The notes beneath the pieces are model-generated. The model did no database searches. It saw nothing but the letters and a program-made list of their open reading frames with translations, and was not told where the DNA came from. From the NCBI GenBank assembly GCA_003217735.2, contig CP031585.1:1537501-1601500 (forward strand): a stretch of DNA of 64,000 nt, in the 5' to 3' direction. A program made the position numbers and the translations under genes. Below, one piece after another: positions 6,069 through 57,982 of this stretch. Each line of letters begins with the position of its first letter. Positions within the stretch are counted from its first letter, which is position 1. This DNA comes from Marinibacterium anthonyi. Lineage in GTDB: Bacteria; Pseudomonadota; Alphaproteobacteria; Rhodobacterales; Rhodobacteraceae.

Positions 6069-6686
6069 ATGGCCGAAACGCAGGAAAAACACATCAACCC
6101 GATCCTCAAGCAGGTTCTGGAACTGGGCCCTACAATTGCCTTCTTCCTGATCTACCTGCGCCTGAAGGAACAGACCTTCACCTGGGGCGGGACCGATTAT
6201 TCCGGCTTCATCGTCGCCACGATCCTGTTCGTGCCGATCCTGCTGATCGCCATGGGCATCCTGTGGAAACTGACCGGCACGCTGTCGCGCCTGCAGATCT
6301 TCACCGCGATCATCGTGATCTTCTTCGGCGGGCTGACGGCCTATTTCAACGACGAACGGTTCTTCAAGATGAAGACCACCATCGTGTACGGCGTCTTCGC
6401 GACCCTGCTGGGCATCGGCCTGCTGCAGGGTAAATCCTACCTCGCCTACATCCTGAACGAGATGATGCCGATGAAGGAACAAGGCTGGATGATCCTGACC
6501 CGGCGGCTGTTCGTCGTGTTCCTGGTCCTTGGCATCGGCAATGAAATCGTTTGGCGGACCATGTCGACCGACGCCTGGGTCAAGATCGAAACCTTCGGCT
6601 TCCCGATCCTGCTGTTCGGCTTCCTGTGGTGGCAGATTATCGCGCTGCAACGGTACCTGATCCTTCCGCCCGAAGAGCAGAAGTAA
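6069..6686 (+). CDS. yciB: Inner-membrane-spanning protein YciB (septation protein A family)
   Basis: A 205-residue polytopic protein with five to six membrane segments. Family features include the N-terminal INPILKQVLELGPTIAFF, the polar AYFNDERFFKMKTT loop and LLGIGLLQGKSYLAYIL, and the late GIGNEIVWRTMSTDAWVKIE, close to the GNEIVWR/WVxFK segment of YciB proteins. In enterobacteria YciB influences septation and envelope integrity; the molecular activity is unsettled. It is downstream of and probably co-transcribed with the EamA gene. The ATG at 6069 follows ACAGGACCGAAAC, a weak but adequate ribosome-binding site. Confidence 0.92.
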   Translation: MAETQEKHINPILKQVLELGPTIAFFLIYLRLKEQTFTWGGTDYSGFIVATILFVPILLIAMGILWKLTGTLSRLQIFTAIIVIFFGGLTAYFNDERFFKMKTTIVYGVFATLLGIGLLQGKSYLAYILNEMMPMKEQGWMILTRRLFVVFLVLGIGNEIVWRTMSTDAWVKIETFGFPILLFGFLWWQIIALQRYLILPPEEQK

Positions 6687-7764: not shown

Positions 7765-7819
7765 TTGTGGCGATTTGTTCACCGGATTGCGGGCCACGTT
7801 AAACATTCCGCTAAAGAGG
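7765..7819 (+). ncRNA. SAM-II riboswitch upstream of metZ
   Basis: The sequence carries the conserved core of SAM-II (metA-type) RNAs. The P1 stem is GTGG (7767-7770) with CCAC (7794-7797). The conserved loop CGATTTG follows, then GGATTGC, GTTAAA after P1, and GCTAAAGAGG. The pseudoknot helix CGGA (7783-7786) with TCCG (7807-7810) is perfect. It lies about 80 bases before a sulfhydrylase of methionine synthesis, the usual target of this alphaproteobacterial riboswitch. Confidence 0.9.
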
Positions 7820-7820
7820 T

Positions 7821-7864
7821 CAGACGAAAGACCCCTTTCGCTTGGCCGCGTCTGGGGTTTTTTT
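7821..7864 (+). terminator. Intrinsic terminator-like hairpin between the riboswitch and metZ
   Basis: CAGACG (7821-7826) pairs with CGTCTG (7849-7854), with an inner CGAAAG/CTTTCG helix, followed by GGGTTTTTTT. An alternative helix of AAAGACCCC with GGGGTTTTT is also possible. The hairpin lies between the aptamer and the coding region, so it could be an attenuator. Confidence 0.75.
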
Positions 7865-49542: not shown

Positions 49543-49757
49543 GTCCGCCTCCGCTGAACCGTGGCCGGCAGATGCCACGGGCGCGGTCCCGCCTGCAAGA
49601 GCCCCTGCATGCGCGGGGGAACCGGCACTGCCCTGCCGGCGTTTCCCGACGGAATGGGCGGGTTGTCGCGTGTAAGCCGTGTAAGCTCCGCATGGGACTG
49701 GCGCAAACCCGTTTTGCGCCGCAATCTGTACGCAAAAAGCTAATCGAGAGGCTCGAG

Positions 49758-51002
49758 ATGACCATGAAACGCGCGCTGACCTGCACCCTTGCCGGGGCCA
49801 TGGCCCTGGCGCCGATTTCCCGTGCATCGGCTGATACCGGCAGTTTCGTCGCCGGTGCCGCGATCGGGGGCCTTCTGGGCCACCTCGCGACCAAGAATTA
49901 CGACAAGAAACACACCGTGGTGCCGCAGGCGACCGCCCCCGCGACATCGTCGACCGCCTCGTCCTCCGGGACGAAACCCGCGGCGCGTCCAGCGGGCATT
50001 CCGTCGACCCAGGAAGGGCGCGAAGTGCAGGCGTCGCTGAACTATTTCGCCTTCGATGCCGGCCCCGTCGACGGCCAGATCGGCAAGAAGACCCGCGACG
50101 CCATTTCGGAGTACCAAGGCTACCTTGGCTATCCGGTCACCGGCGAACTGACGAGCTTTGAACAGGATTTCCTGACCGACGCGCATGAACGCGCCATGGC
50201 CAGCGGTGCCGTGCCCGGGTCCGAACAGGCCAGGGGCCTTCTCAAGGTCTACATGGCCGGGCTGTCCGAACCCAAGGCCGACAGCTCGGACGGCCTGCCG
50301 ACCTTCCAGGTCTCGGCGACGCCGGATTCGCTGTCGGACATGTGCGCCTCGGTCTCGCGCAAGGCGCAGGACAACGGCGGCTACGGCACCATACACCAGG
50401 CGATGAACGCGCCGATCGACGTGCTTCACGAACAATTCTGCATGGCCCGGACCGACGCCATATCGGATGCACAGGCGATGTCGGCCAAGGTGGCCGACGC
50501 CGACGCGGCCGAGATCAAGCGACAATGCGCGGGCTTCGGCCCCGTGATGGCGCCGATGGTCACGGGCCTGTCCACCGAACCCCGCGACGAGATCGTGCGC
50601 CAGGCCGCTTACGTGCTGGCCGACTCGGGCGGCAACCCCGACCAGATGATCGACGTGGGCAAGATCTGCCTGGGCGTCGGATACGAGACCGACGACATGG
50701 CCGTGGCGCTGGGATCGGCCCTGGTGCTGGTCGCGCTGGGGCAGGGGCCCTATGGCGAACTGGTCGGCCACCACCTGGCCGGCGGTTTCGGCACGCCGGT
50801 CGCCCCGGGCAAGGCGGTGGATTGGTATTCGGCCGCCTTCGATGCGGTCGAGAGCGGGCAGCAGGCGGTCTTTGATCCCGCCAACCCGGACCGGATCACC
50901 CTGCTTGAGACCGCTGTCGACCGCGCCTATGACGCGTCGATCAAGCCCCAGCCGGTGTCGCAGCCGGCCGACAGCCTGCCGACCTTTACCACCGGCAACT
51001 GA
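49758..51002 (+). CDS. Secreted peptidoglycan-binding-domain protein, paralogue 1
   Basis: A 414-residue protein with a signal peptide ([25 protein letters not shown]). A glycine-zipper-like [20 protein letters not shown] follows. Residues about 90-145 form a PG_binding_1 domain ([42 protein letters not shown]). The C-terminal 240 residues ([57 protein letters not shown]) form a domain I do not recognise but which recurs in the next gene. Cysteines are spaced alike in both. It probably acts at the cell wall. GAGAGGCTCGAG precedes the ATG. Confidence 0.82.
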
Positions 51003-51271: not shown

Positions 51272-52882
51272 ATGATCACTTCACAGATAAAATTGGCCTG
51301 CGCTGTCGCGCTTGGTTTGAATTTCAGCGTATCCACTGCACAGGCCAGTGATCTTGGGGCGGCAATCGTCGGCGGGATCATCGGTGGCGCAATTGCGGGA
51401 TCCGTACCGAAGAAGACGTATAAAAAGACCTATACGAAATCCTATTCGTCTTCCTCGGGAAATTCGGTCGTCCGGCAGCAAAACCGCGAGATGCAATCGG
51501 CGCTGAATTATTTCAACTTTCCGGCGGGCTCTCCTGATGGTGTCGTCGGCAGCAAGACCCGCGTGGCGGCGTCGCAGTATCAGGTGTTCATGGGGTATCC
51601 CGCGACCGGCAGCCTGACGCAGTATGAACGCGATTTCCTTGTCGCCTCGTACAACCGCGCCCAGATCGGCGGGCCCGAGGTCATCAAGGCCATGCAGGGC
51701 CCGAACGGTGTCCGCGGGCTGCTGCGCACCTGGCGCGATGAGGCCGCCGGCGTGAAGACGGCCGGCAACAGCTATGGCGGTCTGCCGATCGAGGTCAGCG
51801 AAGCCATCGACGAAATCGCCGAAAGCTCGGAACCCAGTGCCGAGCAGCTTCTGCAGCGGTCCGGCTTCCTCATGCTGGCCGATCTCAACAACGACGGGCG
51901 GAACGATTACGTCATCGACACCTCGGTGTCGGGCAGTTCGTTCTGGTGCGGTGCGTCGCATTGCGCGGTCATGGTCTTCGCATCGACCCCGAACGGGTAC
52001 GAGCGCAACGATTTCCAGGCGCGCGAGGTGACGACGGCCAACTTCTCCTGCCACCAGGGTCTGTGCCGGATGAACGAACCGACCACGATGATGGCGGCCG
52101 ACAGCGCACCGGCCCCGGCGCCGACCCAGCCCGCGGCACCGCCCACGACGATGGCGTCCGCCCCTTCGTCGATCCCGACCTTCAACGTCGCCACGCCTGC
52201 CGCGCCCGAGGTGTCTTTGGCCAGCATGTGCAGCAAGGTCGCCCTATTGACCAGCTCCAACGGCGGCTTCATGACGGTCAGCAACATGACCGACCCGAAC
52301 CTGGCGCTGAACGAACAGTTCTGCCTGACGCGGACCTATGCGATCAGCACCGGCGAACAGCTGGTCGCCAAGGTCCAGGGCGCCACGCCGGCCCAGATCG
52401 ACGCCCAGTGCGACGCCTTCGAACCCGTGCTTGCCCCCTTTGTCGCCAGCCTCGCGCAAGAGGACAGCCAGGCGGTGCGCACCAAGGTGCAGAAGTTCGT
52501 GCTGCAGTCGAACATGACGCTCGAGCAGCTGGCGACCACGGCCGAGATCTGCCTGTTCTCCGGCTATCGTCGGGACAAGATGGATATCGCCCTGGGCTCG
52601 GCGCTGGTGATGATCGGGATCGGGCAGGTGCCCTATGCGGAACTGGTCGGCCATCACCTGTCGCAGGGCTTCGGCGTGCCGGAGTCGGGGGAGCGTGCCA
52701 GGGGCTGGTATCAGATGGCGGTTTCGGCGCTGAGTGCGGGCGCCGAACCCGTCTTTGCCCCGGGCCAGCCCGAGCGGGTACAGGTGATCGAAGCGGCCGC
52801 GCTTGAGCTTGCTCCGGCGCCGGAGCAGGCAGTGTCCGCATCGGCCCCGTCGGGTGGGTTGCCGGCGTTCCAACTGAAGTGA
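51272..52882 (+). CDS. Secreted peptidoglycan-binding-domain protein, paralogue 2
   Basis: A 536-residue relative of the preceding gene. Signal peptide MITSQIKLACAVALGLNFSV ending near AQA, a glycine-zipper stretch LGAAIVGGIIGGAIAGSV, a Lys/Tyr/Ser-rich linker, then PG_binding_1 (MQSALNYFNFPAGSPDGVVG, TRVAASQYQVFMGYPATGSL). An insertion absent from paralogue 1 carries a calcium-loop-like ADLNNDGRNDYVID and three Cys. The same C-terminal domain follows (IPTFNVATPAAPEVSLASMC, EQFCLTRTYAIS, ALGSALVMIGIGQVPYAELVGHH). A strong terminator ends it. Confidence 0.83.
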   Translation: MITSQIKLACAVALGLNFSVSTAQASDLGAAIVGGIIGGAIAGSVPKKTYKKTYTKSYSSSSGNSVVRQQNREMQSALNYFNFPAGSPDGVVGSKTRVAASQYQVFMGYPATGSLTQYERDFLVASYNRAQIGGPEVIKAMQGPNGVRGLLRTWRDEAAGVKTAGNSYGGLPIEVSEAIDEIAESSEPSAEQLLQRSGFLMLADLNNDGRNDYVIDTSVSGSSFWCGASHCAVMVFASTPNGYERNDFQAREVTTANFSCHQGLCRMNEPTTMMAADSAPAPAPTQPAAPPTTMASAPSSIPTFNVATPAAPEVSLASMCSKVALLTSSNGGFMTVSNMTDPNLALNEQFCLTRTYAISTGEQLVAKVQGATPAQIDAQCDAFEPVLAPFVASLAQEDSQAVRTKVQKFVLQSNMTLEQLATTAEICLFSGYRRDKMDIALGSALVMIGIGQVPYAELVGHHLSQGFGVPESGERARGWYQMAVSALSAGAEPVFAPGQPERVQVIEAAALELAPAPEQAVSASAPSGGLPAFQLK

Positions 52883-52902
52883 AACCAGCCTGAAACGTCC
52901 CG

Positions 52903-52935
52903 AAAGGCCGGTCGTCGTACCGGCCTTTTGTTTTT
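52903..52935 (+). terminator. Rho-independent terminator of paralogue 2
   Basis: AAAGGCCGGT, CGTCGT loop, ACCGGCCTTT followed by TGTTTTT, 20 bases after the stop. Confidence 0.92.
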
Positions 52936-53009
52936 GCTGCAGGTCCCGTTTTTGGCTCTTGAGCTCTCAAGGACGCTCGTCTATACGGCGCGGACCAAGT
53001 CAAGACTGT

Positions 53010-53096
53010 GCGGTCGTGGCGGAATTGGTAGACGCGCAGCGTTGAGGTCGCTGTGGGGTAACTCCCGTGGAAGTTCGAGTCTTCTCGACCGCACCA
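53010..53096 (+). tRNA. tRNA-Leu (anticodon GAG)
   Basis: An 87-nt class II tRNA. Acceptor GCGGTCG (53010-53016) pairs with CGACCGC (53086-53092), followed by encoded ACCA. The anticodon stem CAGCG/CGCTG encloses TTGAGGT, giving anticodon GAG. A long variable arm (GTGGGGTAACTCCCGT) and T-loop GTTCGAGTC are present. Confidence 0.97.
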
Positions 53097-53635
53097 ATCT
53101 TCAACAGACAAGCAGGCGGATGCGGGCGTTTTCGCGTTCTGGACGTGAACCGTGCAGCTAAGTGCGGGACATAGTGATCTCGCCCAGCAAAGTCCAAGTC
53201 TACCGAAAACTCACCTTCGATAGCGGTTTTTGAGTATCTGGCGCTTGGAAGACAATCGGATCAGCAAAGTCGATATGCCCGGAAAATTCGCGGCGGGATA
53301 GGCCGCGTCGTTGACATTTTTGCCGTATATGTGCGGCGCAGAAAATCTACGCTTTGAGATCGCGGGCAGGCCGCACCCCTTCGGATGCGAACAAGATCAG
53401 CTATCTCACTGGGCCCAAATCGTCGAAAATCCGTATTCTCTGCGATTTCCCGCAGAGCGCTCAACTTGGACAGACATTCATTGGTTGGACCGGTGTCAGC
53501 AACGTGCGACGGCTACCCAACGCTACCCAACCCAACCCGACCCGACGGCGCGGGGTGAATACGGCTTTCGGCCTCGCAACTCCTATCCCCAAGGCATATA
53601 TTCCGGGGACGGGGCGTACCTTTCCCGGTCAATTA
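53097..53635. other. 539-base gap downstream of tRNA-Leu, no gene recognised
   Basis: Between tRNA-Leu and the stop of the chemoreceptor-like gene. It looks less GC-rich than its surroundings and has a CTACCCAACG, CTACCCAACC, CAACCCGACC short direct-repeat tract (53513-53543) and a TTGACATTTTTGCCG at 53311. Open frames here are short, have no good ribosome-binding site and resemble nothing. I see no copy of the tRNA 3' end that would mark an attachment site. Confidence 0.5.
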
Positions 53636-55684
53636 TCAGGCGACCGCCCGCACTGCGCCGGATAGGGGCGAAAAGCTTCCGTCCGCCCCCAATTGAGACA
53701 TGTAGACAGTCGAGGTGCCCGCATTGCGGCCCGGTCCGTATTCCAGCGTCAGGTCACCCATCGACAATCTTGTGGGCTGCGAGAACACGGAGGCCAGGAA
53801 AGTCTCCCGCGTCGGGTTCGGGCCGGCGGCGGCCAATACCTTGCAGGCGGTCATGCCGATCACATAGCCCTCGAGATGGGCAAAGTCGGGCTTGGCGGCT
53901 GGTTCGAACCGGGACATGGCATTGCGATAGGCGCGCACCAGATCCGAACGCTGGTCCGTGGGAATGGGAACGACCTGGCTGACGACCACGCCGGCGCCGT
54001 CGCGACCGACGTATTTTGCGAACTCGCCTCCGTTCACGAACGAGATCGTGGCGAAATCGGCGGTCACGCCGGCGCCGCGGACGCCGCGCACGAAATCCGC
54101 CGTGGGCGTCGGCGTGCCGGCCATGAAGACGATCGACGGTGCGGCATTGGATATGATGCGGATCGCTTCCGAAACGTCGCCGGTCGTGCGTTCGTAGGGC
54201 GCCAGGATCTCGATCGATTTCGAGTGCCGGGCCAAGGCGGCGGTCAGTGCCTCGCGAACCGAAAGGCCGTAGGCATCCGCCTGGAAGAAGAGAGCGCACC
54301 GCTCCAGGGAGCCTTTCCGCGCGAAGTGGCTGACCAGGGCTTCCGCCTCATCCGCGTAGGAGGCGCGGATGTTGAGCACATGCTTGCGCTCTGGCCCGCG
54401 CAGGAAGCCGGTGCCGGTCGCCGGCCCGATGAAGGGGACCTGGCCGCCGCGCGCGATCCTTTCGCTGAGTTTCGAGGTCGGTGTCCCGACGGCGCCCGCC
54501 AGTGCGAAAACTTCGCCACCGCGCACCAGTGCCCGGACGTTTTCCAGTGCGCGGTCCGGGTCATAGCCATCGTCCATAGACCGCAGGACCGGTTTTCGCC
54601 CATGGATGCCCCCGGCCGCGACGGCCTCGGCAAAGGCCAGTTCGATGCCGCTGCGCACATTCGACCCGAAAACGCCAAGCGATCCGGTAAGGGGCGCCGA
54701 TTGGCCGAAGATGACCGTGTCGTCCGTTACGCCGGGTTCGGCGGAAATGTGGCGTACGAATTCCGACGTTTCCTCGGTCAGACGTCGGGCCTGTTCCTGG
54801 ATCGACAGGATCCCGGCCTGGACCTTCTGCATTTCAGCATTGGTCGCCTCGGCGCATTCATTGATCCGTTCCGTGGACTTGACCTGCGCGTCAATCGCCT
54901 CGACCACGCCGGTCGCCAGTTTCGACACTTCGGAATTCGCGCTCTTGTTGGTTTCGACCGCGACTGTCATGTTGTCGGCCGCGCGGCTCATCTCAAGCGC
55001 GGTCTGCTTGACGCGGTGGGCCGCTTCGGACGTGTTCTTGGACAGGCTCTTGACCTCTTGCGCGACGACGGCAAAACCCCGGCCCGCAGGACCGGCGCGC
55101 GCCGCCTCGATCGAGGCGTTGATCGCCAGCATATTGGTCTTGAATGCGATTTCTTCGATCAGATCGACGAGCTTGACGATCTCGTTGGCAGCGGTCGACA
55201 CTTCCCTGGTGATCGTCAACGCCTCGTCCGCCCGGTCCGAGGCACGCTTGACGCTTTCCTCCGACGCGTGCACGCGCTGCGTCACTTCGGTGATGGTGGC
55301 CCGGATGTCGGCGGCCGCGGAAATGACGGTGGCAAATGTGGATACGGCGTTTTCGGTTGCCCGGTTCCCGTCGTCGCCACAGGCGATAAGGGTCCGGATC
55401 ACCTTTCCCACAGTGGCGTCAAATCGCTTGCCCACGCTACGCATTTCGCCGCGGCGCTTGAGCTCGAGCTGGCCTTCGCCGATCGCCTGCGTCTCGCCCT
55501 CGCGGATCAGCTTGTAATGCGCCTTGCGCAGGCGTTCGACGACCTCGATCAGATCCCGGGCCGTGCCTTCGGGCGCGTCAAGCCGAATGGGACGGTTCTG
55601 TTCGTCGAACAGGAAGGTGGCGATCTGTTCGGCCAGCCCGGCAAGCAGCGCATCGGACGAAGAGGAGGCTGGCTGGGTGTGCAT
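53636..55684 (-). CDS. Cytoplasmic MCP signalling domain fused to a LivJ-type binding-protein domain
   Basis: A 682-residue protein with reversed chemoreceptor order. Residues about 110-315 form a helical methyl-accepting signalling domain with the conserved hairpin tip [40 protein letters not shown] (about 176-215). From about 322 to the end is a Peripla_BP_6-type domain ([59 protein letters not shown]). No signal peptide, membrane helix or HAMP domain is visible, so both parts should be cytoplasmic. GGAGGA sits 5 bases before the ATG at 55684; longer in-frame starts (55696, 55762) lack such a site. No che genes adjoin. Confidence 0.87.
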
Positions 55685-56248
55685 ATCGTCCTCCATCGGC
55701 GGAGTGGGGGATGCGGACTGCGCGGTCCGGCCCTTCTTTCTGGAAAGGATCATGCCGGACACACGGGCGCGGCGCCGCAGGGGATGCCGGCAGGTGACGT
55801 TTGCAGGGGGTCTGACTGACAGGCGCCGGGGCGCGGAGCGTACCGGACCGTTCCCGGGACGGACCGGACGGTCACACGGGCAAGGTCATCGCTGAAGCGC
55901 ATGTGGCCTCCTCGCGGCGTGGTGATTTCGGAAGGGGGTCAGCGCAAAGCCGTGCATGGCAGGCAGGAAAACCTAGATCGCGACATGGAACCCTCCGATC
56001 CCGAATTTGCATTGGACGGACCATGGCGGGTTTTTCCTAACTTGCGGTTAAGCCGGACCGGCCCGGATTCGAGCGATTTGAAGCAATCGCGGCAGCATGT
56101 CTCGCGGCAATGAAGATTGTGCGGAATGGACAAGAAAATTGACAGTTCGGAGAGTATTGTGCGAAATCGCTCAGTGTCTCTGCGGCCACAGGGCTTTGCG
56201 CGAGGCCTCGTTCTGACTAACTCTGGGCACATCAGACAGGAGGTTGTC
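55685..56248. other. Divergent promoter region, no gene recognised
   Basis: This 564-base region separates the start of the chemoreceptor-like gene from the start of the pirin gene. It contains a TTGACAGTTCGGAG at 56139 and an A/T-richer stretch from about 56030 to 56240. I found no coding frame with a convincing start, and no clear -10 partner for the TTGACA. Confidence 0.5.
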
Positions 56249-57181
56249 ATGAGCTGGAACCCCGTACTTGACCCTGAAATTCCGATCGCAGACGCGGTTG
56301 ATGCCGTCGAAACCCTGATCGTTCCGCGTGCCCGTGACCTGGGCGATTTTGAAGTGCGGCGCGCGCTGCCGGCGCCCAGGCGGCAGATGGTGGGGCCGTT
56401 CATCTTTTTCGACCAGATGGGCCCCGCCGAATTCCTCACCGGGCAGGGGATCGACATTCGTCCGCACCCACATATCGGTTTGGCGACAGTGACTTACCTT
56501 TACAAAGGCAAGTTCCACCATCGCGATTCCCTGGGCACGGATCAATGGATCGAACCGGGTGCCGTCAACCTGATGACCGCCGGCCATGGCGTGACCCATT
56601 CCGAACGGGTCGACGGCGACATGTTGAAAAGTCCCTACAACCTGTTCGGCATCCAGACCTGGATCGCGCTGCCCGAGGACAAGGAGGAGCAGCCCGCAGA
56701 CTTTGTCCACGTGCCCAAGGACGCACTGCCGTTCCTGGAAGGGGAGGGCAAGCAGGTGCGTCTGATCCTGGGCCATGCCTATGGCGAGACCGCCCCGGCC
56801 GAGACGCCGTCGGACATGTTCTATGCCGACGCCGTGCTGGAGGCCGGCGCCACCCTTCCGCTGCCCGACGATCACGAGGATCGCGGCGTCTACGTGGTGG
56901 AGGGATCGGTCCAAGTCTCTGGAACCACGTATGAATCCGGGCAGATGATGGTGTTTCGACCCGGTGACAGGCTGGCGCTTAAGGCCGGGCCGGCGGGGGC
57001 GCGGATCCTGCTTCTGGGCGGGGCGACGATGAACGGGCCGCGACATATCTGGTGGAATTTCGTCGCCTCGTCGAAGGAAAAGATCGACGCGGCCAAGGAA
57101 GCCTGGCGCGAGGGTGATTGGGAGCATGGACGCTTTCGGCTGCCGCCCACCGACCGGGACGAGTTCATCCCTTTGCCCTGA
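56249..57181 (+). CDS. Pirin family protein
   Basis: A 310-residue bicupin. The N-terminal metal-binding cupin shows GPFIFFDQMGPAEF, DIRPHPHIGLATVTYLYKG with three His/Glu-type ligands, HHRDSLGTDQWIEPGAVNLMTAGHGVTHSER and the ligand-rich LFGIQTWIALP. The C-terminal cupin has GVYVVEGSVQV. Members include quercetinases and redox-linked regulators; activity here is unknown. CAGGAGG lies 6 bases before the ATG at 56249, so the longer frame starting at 56117 is rejected. It stands alone between a divergent gene and a tRNA gene. Confidence 0.93.
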   Translation: MSWNPVLDPEIPIADAVDAVETLIVPRARDLGDFEVRRALPAPRRQMVGPFIFFDQMGPAEFLTGQGIDIRPHPHIGLATVTYLYKGKFHHRDSLGTDQWIEPGAVNLMTAGHGVTHSERVDGDMLKSPYNLFGIQTWIALPEDKEEQPADFVHVPKDALPFLEGEGKQVRLILGHAYGETAPAETPSDMFYADAVLEAGATLPLPDDHEDRGVYVVEGSVQVSGTTYESGQMMVFRPGDRLALKAGPAGARILLLGGATMNGPRHIWWNFVASSKEKIDAAKEAWREGDWEHGRFRLPPTDRDEFIPLP

Positions 57182-57298
57182 GCCGAGGGCGGGTCAAAAA
57201 ATGCGCCGGGCGCTCGGAAAATCCGGTCGATTGCGCTTGACGGGGCGCGCGGGGGGCCGTATCTCGCGCTCCACCACCAGCGGAAGCGGGTGGCCAGC

Positions 57299-57375
57299 GC
57301 GGTTGTAGCTCAGTTGGTTAGAGTACCGGCCTGTCACGCCGGGGGTCGCGGGTTCGAGCCCCGTCAACCGCGCCA
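57299..57375 (+). tRNA. tRNA-Asp (anticodon GTC), copy 1
   Basis: A 77-nt tRNA. Acceptor GCGGTTG pairs with CAACCGC, then GCCA. The anticodon stem CCGGC/GCCGG encloses CTGTCAC, giving GTC. T-loop GGTTCGAGCC is present. Identical in all 77 bases to the copy at 58654-58730. Confidence 0.97.
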
Positions 57376-57396
57376 CTTTCTTCCGTTTCGTACAAG

Positions 57397-57433
57397 CAAA
57401 TCCCGGGGTCTCCCCGCGGATTTGTCTGTTTTG
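57397..57433 (+). terminator. Terminator-like hairpin after tRNA-Asp copy 1
   Basis: CAAATCC-CGGGG, loop TCT, CCCCG-C-GGATTTG forms a 12-bp stem with one bulge, followed by TCTGTTTTG. Confidence 0.75.
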
Positions 57434-57982
57434 TACAAAACATTTCGCGCAATCACGGGCGGCCCTGGGCCGCCCCATGCCAGGTGCGCGGGCGTGATCC
57501 GATCTTCGATCACCTTGCCGAGGCGCCACGCGCGGCACCGTCCCGGGCCGTGCGGCCGACAGGGCGCGCAGACGCGTTTCGCATCCGCCCCACCGGCTGC
57601 ACGCAGCGGTCTTGGGGCGGGTTCGCGGAGCACGCGGGATGGCGGAGGCGCGGCCGGGTCGGGGACCGGGGTCTTTGAACATTGTCGCGGAGAACGGGAC
57701 AGGGCCTGCGTCGCGCCACGGGGCGGAGAATCGGTTCCGGCGCTGGATTGGCGTCTGTCACGGGACAATCGTCCGGGATTCGGGTGAATGTGATTTGGGT
57801 CACAGTGAGTCCGCACAGCATTGGCGCATGTCTTGGGACAATGCGGAGAATCCCGTGTAATTTGATTTTCACAACAGGAATTCGCGCATAAAGTGTTATG
57901 CGTGCCAAGTTACTACTTCACTCGGCGCGTATTTGTGTCAAATTCTGGTCAGTGCATTCGAGACGAAAGCCAGGAGGATAAC
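57434..57982. other. Long leader region before the cNMP-binding gene
   Basis: No gene is supported in this 549-base stretch; frames antisense to or around the tRNA are artefacts. It contains the CRP-type palindrome described separately and three direct copies of GCGGAGAAC/T (57688, 57724, 57843) associated with GGGACAAT/GGGACA words, which may be further binding sites. Confidence 0.5.
57789..57804. promoter_or_regulatory. Perfect CRP-type palindrome
   Basis: TGTGA-TTTGGG-TCACA is an exact TGTGA-N6-TCACA dyad. It lies about 180 bases upstream of a gene for a cyclic-nucleotide-binding domain. A CRP/FNR-superfamily activator is the likely binder, but this is inferred from the site alone. Confidence 0.65.

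Follow-up and report, generated by a model that had tools for sequence, protein, structure and literature searches.

AmiC is a cytosolic sensor. Among chemoreceptors, TlpD is a soluble MCP whose sensor lies at the C-terminus and which is described, in the portion of the source used here, as being without the usual methylation sites (PMC12871147). In the accessible part of a table from a chemoreceptor survey, Peripla_BP_5 appears once (PMC8547431), and among open-licence papers, several of them represented by excerpts, we found none that deals with a C-terminal Peripla_BP_6 domain on an MCP, which is no proof of absence. The gene described here has this arrangement, which is new and is assembled from two known kinds of domain, MCP and Peripla_BP_6. 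It lies in a window of 64,000 nucleotides, i.e. the whole stretch of DNA that was analysed, and had previously been noticed from the letters alone (hereafter the sequence-only reading). The interpretation that we favour, with a probability of roughly 0.6 and on the basis of sequence, structure model and analogy, is that the product is a soluble, cytosolic chemoreceptor made by gene fusion, resembling TlpD, in which a ligand would control CheA.

Gene, domains and structure model

The frame of 682 residues claimed by the sequence-only reading is open throughout (Table 1). An upstream GTG, 78 bases 5′ of the ATG, would extend it by 26 residues to 708; GGAGG precedes the ATG at 55684 as well as the starts of three homologues, and is missing before the alternative GTG. 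A Sigma-70 promoter scan was uninformative (0 found, 0.6 expected). The Pfam check that had been proposed gave matches above the curated cut-offs for both expected families in the 708-residue frame: MCPsignal at 165-328 (139-302 in the numbering of the 682-residue protein; E 2.8e-25) and Peripla_BP_6 at 352-694 (326-668; E 2.2e-44). No further Pfam family, PAS, CZB and HAMP included, was found in this frame at E 0.1, and NCBIfam returned nothing but matches far below cut-off, to models of chemoreceptors, to coiled-coil proteins and to one model of a branched-chain amino acid binding protein. The hairpin tip, expected at about residues 176-205, is where it had been placed, with a 15-residue tip segment starting at residue 184; the protein thus has an MCPsignal domain with its conserved hairpin tip intact.

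Table 1. Features of the fusion locus, with positions in the window
Feature	Position	Strand	Basis or remark
Fusion gene, MCP without membrane part plus C-terminal Peripla_BP_6, 682 residues	53636..55684	-	ORF, Pfam, hydropathy, GGAGG before the ATG, homologues
Residues 9-60, start built of helix, connector and helix; may be a HAMP-like unit of soluble type	55505..55660	-	AlphaFold2 model; weak McpB_HAMP_1st match in the G109 homologue only; hhalign negative
Residues 41-314, MCP coiled-coil hairpin, turn near residue 197	54743..55564	-	Pfam, alignment, model; scan detected no canonical methylation site
Residues 177-198, kinase-control tip (22 residues)	55091..55156	-	Core residues invariant in 5/5 fusions
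Residues 313-319, ISAEPGV, junction	54728..54748	-	In exported relatives, the aligned segment is the signal-peptide cleavage region and the start of the mature protein
Residues 316-682, type-1 periplasmic-binding-protein (Venus flytrap) domain	53639..54739	-	Pfam, model, fold matches
tRNA-Leu (gag), convergent neighbour, context only	53010..53096	+	About 540 bases from fusion stop codon

Neither a membrane helix nor a signal peptide was found in a hydropathy scan, as the sequence-only reading had anticipated. The best 19-residue Kyte-Doolittle mean of the fusion protein is 1.25 with the 26-residue extension included, so that the alternative start, named beforehand as a possible source of refutation, adds no hydrophobic stretch either; the peaks of four homologous fusions are 1.05, 1.34, 1.31 and 1.58, the last of them within the binding domain. 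Nine out of ten control MCPs reach means of 1.8-2.84, the tenth (L141) only 1.19. By hydropathy and model the protein therefore lacks the membrane helices and N-terminal external sensor of a transmembrane chemoreceptor, and it has the Peripla_BP_6 domain (Pfam and fold) but not the signal peptide of an exported binding protein. What it fits, by Pfam, hydropathy and model, is a soluble MCP with a C-terminal sensor: an MCP domain, then a ligand-binding fold, and no membrane part. Since a normally exported binding domain is carried here on the tail of a protein without a membrane part, the protein probably measures something inside the cell; the earlier suggestion of a cytoplasmic sensor is supported in this respect by the hydropathy, the MCP output domain and the C-terminal binding fold.

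An AlphaFold2 model, built on 48 alignment rows, has a mean pLDDT of 86, with the flytrap mostly at 89-98 and the coiled coil less sure at 68-87; its pTM of 0.71 leaves the arrangement of the domains loosely fixed. It consists of a helix at 41-196, a turn, a helix at 198-314 and a flytrap from residue 323, in line with the type-1 fold predicted from about 322. The best solved matches of the model in Foldseek were 4kv7, 3lop and 4m88 (target-normalised TM 0.90, 0.93 and 0.89), and AmiC was also among the matches; comparison with a viral fold library gave nothing informative. The claim that no HAMP domain is present is doubtful. Pfam found none in the window protein, and hhalign of the fusion against the HAMP domains of membrane MCPs gave no match (probability 2.3). 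Against this, the model begins with a helix (9-27) and a loop before the long helix 41-196, and the homologue in G109 (locus L043) has a match to McpB_HAMP_1st, below cut-off, at E 9.6e-5.

Homologous fusions and their exported relatives

A scan of genome contigs yielded six loci, three of which hold full-length fusions: in Rhodobacteraceae bacterium SP126 (L031, the same genome as G001; 75% identity to the window fusion), Mangrovicoccus sp. HB161399 (L032; 55%) and Poseidonocella sp. HB161398 (L033; 54%). A more distant fusion, that of G109, came from the whole-genome search (35%). The search for homologues of the same domain order, which had been suggested, thus produced four, and in all five fusions MCPsignal is continuous with Peripla_BP_6 in identical order and the frame is open. 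The dN/dS ratio of the whole gene is 0.165 in the pair G000/G001 and 0.27 in L032/L033; the corresponding values are 0.14 and 0.24 for the binding domain and 0.066 and 0.44 for the linker, which has 31 codons. Judged by these sequences, the arrangement is kept under purifying selection. A frameshift, or two joined genes, had been named beforehand as an outcome fatal to the sequence-only reading, and is ruled out by the same joined order in five genomes; the four homologues, the purifying selection and the single clade of binding domains (see below) argue together that there is neither frameshift nor chimera.

The fusion is rare. Searches covered 61 relatives, then 394 genomes of the family, 390 of the order, 385 of the class and 398 of the phylum, as well as one genus of 2 and another of 3 genomes; together these amount to no more than 1365 distinct genomes. 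The four large searches scored only two or three candidates in each genome, and the E-value thresholds were strict except in the search of the 61 relatives. Among the matches listed, the fusion occurs in three of these genomes (G000, G001 and G109), those of L032 and L033 being from the separate scan. The binding domain itself is common: at a threshold of 1e-30 it is matched in 39 of the 394 genomes of the family, with the fusions accounting for three. A third genome of the genus, G002, has no fusion at E 1e-40 and carries one free-standing relative followed by an MCP gene. Among plasmid records, 509 had a match, none of them covering 80% of the query, and the 15 listed match the binding-protein half only. 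Two long frames considered as further fusions, in G673 (1293) and G231 (693), proved to be binding-protein frames followed by separate MCPs. Long frames were also seen in G1356, G711 and G715, and G1276 has a 531-residue frame whose match spans model positions 233-676. In locus L008 (367-2571; genome G049) the same binding-domain family shares one frame with a different N-terminal part, which has a GDLHG motif and which we take to be phosphatase-like.

The gene is isolated and adjoins tRNA-Leu, as had been described: searches of its genome for CheW, CheR and MCP domains had the fusion as their sole match within the window, and no liv genes were recognized on reading the ORFs of 48-62 kb. Two neighbouring frames in the window, 49572-51002 and 51272-52882, look like paralogues by eye. 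L031 has the same neighbourhood as the window, the gene being flanked by two tRNA-Asp and, on its opposite side, by tRNA-Leu (gag). In L032 and L033 a tRNA-Leu (taa) (6163-6246 and 7774-7857, respectively) lies a short way upstream of the fusion start; since this is a different tRNA-Leu, the tRNA neighbourhood may be due to chance. Insertion at a tRNA gene was rejected on this ground and because the window has no direct repeat of at least 16 bases in 52800-57600.

In an unrooted tree of 70 binding domains (5 fused and 65 other rows), the fused ones form one clade with support 100/100, i.e. a single change of state. The branch of this clade is long (1.36) and its exact placing unsure, above all that of L043; among the other rows L095 comes nearest, at a weaker support of 93/83. 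The related binding domains are mostly free-standing exported proteins. We inspected 28 of their loci, namely 20 of our own choice from the hit lists (L109-L128) together with L034, L037-L041, L104 and L107, leaving out the other tree rows. An MCP gene follows the relative directly, on the same strand, in 22 out of 28, with gaps of -49 to 164 bases. A HAMP histidine kinase follows in L041 and a HAMP-PAS nucleotide cyclase in L124, where a TorS-sensor match is below cut-off; no receptor was found beside the relative in the remaining four (L114, L122, L125 and L127). Where checked, the neighbouring MCPs are of the membrane type, with hydrophobic stretches in L109-L111 and HAMP matches in L034, L037, L040 (below cut-off), L111 and L123. 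With an MCP as neighbour in 22/28 loci, the subfamily would seem to supply the binding partner in binding-protein/receptor pairs. The fusion thus directs attention to a common family of exported proteins whose genes adjoin those of MCPs (once that of a kinase, once of a cyclase), on which literature searches by terms other than the family name listed no study.

The junction is telling in this respect. The binding domain starts with SA-EPGV, SA-EPGI or TS-EPGV in the fusions and with MA-EPGV in the exported relative L055; 60 out of 65 other rows have xx[GN][VI] at this position, and in 58 out of 65 it is preceded by a hydrophobic stretch (mean above 1.6 over 15 residues). The junction thus coincides with the signal-peptide cleavage region and mature start of the relatives, and it appears from these alignments that a mature, chemotaxis-linked binding protein was joined to the tail of an MCP minus its export signal. 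What is new here is that the relatives are exported and adjoin MCPs, and that the fusion junction falls at their cleavage region. Because the fused clade is small and the others are widely spread, we infer from the unrooted tree that the change went from exported to fused.

Ligand pocket, kinase-control tip and che partners

In LivJ the amino acid is held by side chains of S79, T102, Y202 and E226, according to the part of the source used here (PMC13103812). Aligned to E. coli LivJ, these correspond to T401, G424, T524 and S548 of the fusion, and only T401 is conservative, in an alignment whose 18% identity makes it a weak guide for single positions. With three of the four contact side chains changed, an amino acid is not supported as the ligand, contrary to the example given in the sequence-only reading; its label ‘LivJ-type’ holds as regards the type-1 binding fold and is loose otherwise, the closest solved structures being the three named above. 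The departure from an amino acid pocket seems to concern the whole subfamily, since T, G and S are carried at the first, second and fourth contact positions by 63, 65 and 64 of the 65 other rows. At the third, these rows have mostly A, with Y one column on (60/65), a Y that the fusions lack. Compared with the other rows, the fusions have A, V or L for F (61/65) at 422 and P or A for Y (60/65) at 525, at or beside LivJ contact positions. The further differences of the fusions at 422 and 425 suggest that the ligand of the fused members has changed relative to that of their relatives. Going by the alignment, a standard alpha-amino acid is an unlikely ligand; our guess, to which we attach little weight, would be a small carboxylate.

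Counting the fusion, ten MCP matches occur in the genome, together with four CheR domains, two flagellin matches and eight CheW domains that fall into three che clusters (0.69, 1.64 and 4.24 Mb); with these clusters and flagellin matches, a Che pathway is available to the fusion. The three clusters contain CheW-domain frames of 642, 742 and 673 residues, which we take to be CheA from their size and reading. A tip RQTDLLALNA is common to the MCPs in the 0.69 and 4.24 Mb clusters, and the 10-residue tip of the fusion (FKTN) is nearer to the tip FQTNLLALNA, found in the MCP beside the 1.64 Mb cluster; this makes the CheA of the 1.64 Mb cluster the likelier partner as far as tip sequences can tell. 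Over 52 positions, tip identity to the fusion is 30-31 for L137-L141 and 26-27 for three MCPs inside the 0.69 and 4.24 Mb clusters; this difference is modest, and L142, outside these clusters, also has 27/52.

Scanned with a methylation consensus, four of the five fusions have no canonical methylation site within 170 residues of the tip and the fifth has one near it. At least one site is present in all 26 control MCPs scanned (28 had been listed; L143 and L144 were dropped, as the tip pattern missed both). Without canonical sites the fusion probably adapts poorly or by another route. TlpD, an MCP, is described as being without them too, and so their absence qualifies the chemoreceptor assignment and does not exclude it.

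A few other observations were made around the che genes. The 4.24 Mb cluster includes another short MCP, PAS then MCPsignal (L161 12684-13865). Two long proteins are encoded beside two of the clusters (L159 11205-12938 and L161 10929-12602), one of which has no Pfam match at E 0.01 and the other a sub-threshold MCPsignal only. A small globin gene (L159 12967-13371) adjoins the 0.69 Mb cluster. Elsewhere in the genome, two MCP genes lie about 2.3 kb apart (L139 and L140, at 2867379 and 2869658), with identical signalling-domain scores and aligned segments, and by appearance are a recent duplication.

Possible mode of action and known systems compared

If the fusion is a TlpD-like receptor, the protein would be dimeric in the cytosol. 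A small intracellular ligand would close the flytraps, which would sit at the coiled-coil base, and the hairpin would pass the change on to the tip, where it would alter CheA activity, as proposed for TlpD with its C-terminal sensor. Counted against this reading were the position of the gene apart from the che genes, the loosely fixed domain arrangement of the model and the linker dN/dS, which is low in one pair and higher in the other. A non-flagellar output of the same receptor, through either of the remaining che clusters (second messenger, surface behaviour or development), seems rather unlikely to us: soluble receptors feeding non-flagellar systems are known (Frz, Wsp and Pil), and CheA-size frames in three clusters and four CheR domains speak for it, but the MCPs within the 0.69 and 4.24 Mb clusters carry a different tip. 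It is less probable still that the flytrap has ceased to sense a small molecule and serves instead for protein docking or dimerisation, in which case the receptor would report a partner protein or just shape the array. The changes at near-invariant positions 422 and 525 would agree with such a role, as would the presence among the structural matches of AmiC, which was solved with its partner AmiR, and the long branch together with these changed residues also fits a loss of small-ligand binding. However, the five fusions agree fully at positions 401, 423, 424, 524 and 548, and the binding domain has the low dN/dS values given above.

The same constraint weighs on the idea of a decaying, functionless remnant of a receptor, which we consider very improbable: few genomes carry the fusion and the fused clade has a long branch, but the frames are open in five genomes, dN/dS is well below 1 and the tip is conserved. 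An artefact of sequencing or assembly that joined two genes can be practically dismissed, for nothing was found in its favour and both the joined order in five genomes and the shared neighbourhood in L031 contradict it. Within the favoured reading of a cytosolic chemoreceptor, a more specific proposal, to which we give somewhat less than even odds, is that an outward-facing sensing pair was turned inward. The binding protein, which once would have reported an external compound to an MCP, would have been internalised as the tail of the receptor, with the flytrap pulling on the coiled coil where its C-terminal arm begins at the base. The cell would then measure the cytosolic pool of that compound or a close metabolite, probably without methylation-based adaptation. 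This would be a concrete route from an external sensor to a cytosolic one. The fusion also allows the driving of a chemoreceptor coiled coil by a flytrap, normally spread over two proteins and a membrane, to be tested in a single natural chain; having no membrane part, it should lend itself more readily to crystallisation or to reconstitution with CheA and CheW.

As regards known systems, TlpD and the soluble CZB MCPs resemble the fusion in having no membrane part, an MCP hairpin followed by a C-terminal sensor and, as TlpD is described, none of the usual methylation sites; they differ in their sensor, as far as the excerpted source describes it, which is CZB, a zinc-binding four-helix bundle, instead of a flytrap of about 340 residues, and TlpD has an N-terminal PAS domain of which Pfam finds none in the fusion (PMC12871147). 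The cytosolic chemoreceptor cluster of Rhodobacter sphaeroides likewise contains membrane-free chemoreceptors, and the portion of the source used here does not mention a binding-protein domain in them (PMC3964821). On the sensor side, 4kv7, 3lop and 4m88 are the closest solved sequences and folds to the C-terminal domain, but they are free-standing, are named as binding or periplasmic proteins and are not joined to a signalling domain. AmiC (PDB 1qo0 and 1qnl) has its fold in common with the sensor of the fusion, but is a separate protein that acts on AmiR and has no MCP. Finally, the pairs of a binding protein and a receptor (MCP or TorS-like kinase) use the same binding-protein subfamily as the fusion; in these pairs two proteins meet outside the cytosol, whereas the fusion is a single polypeptide, MCP then binding domain, with no export signal. 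If the inward turn proposed above is true, the fusion is the inside-facing, one-chain counterpart of a binding-protein/MCP pair that is still present in related genomes.
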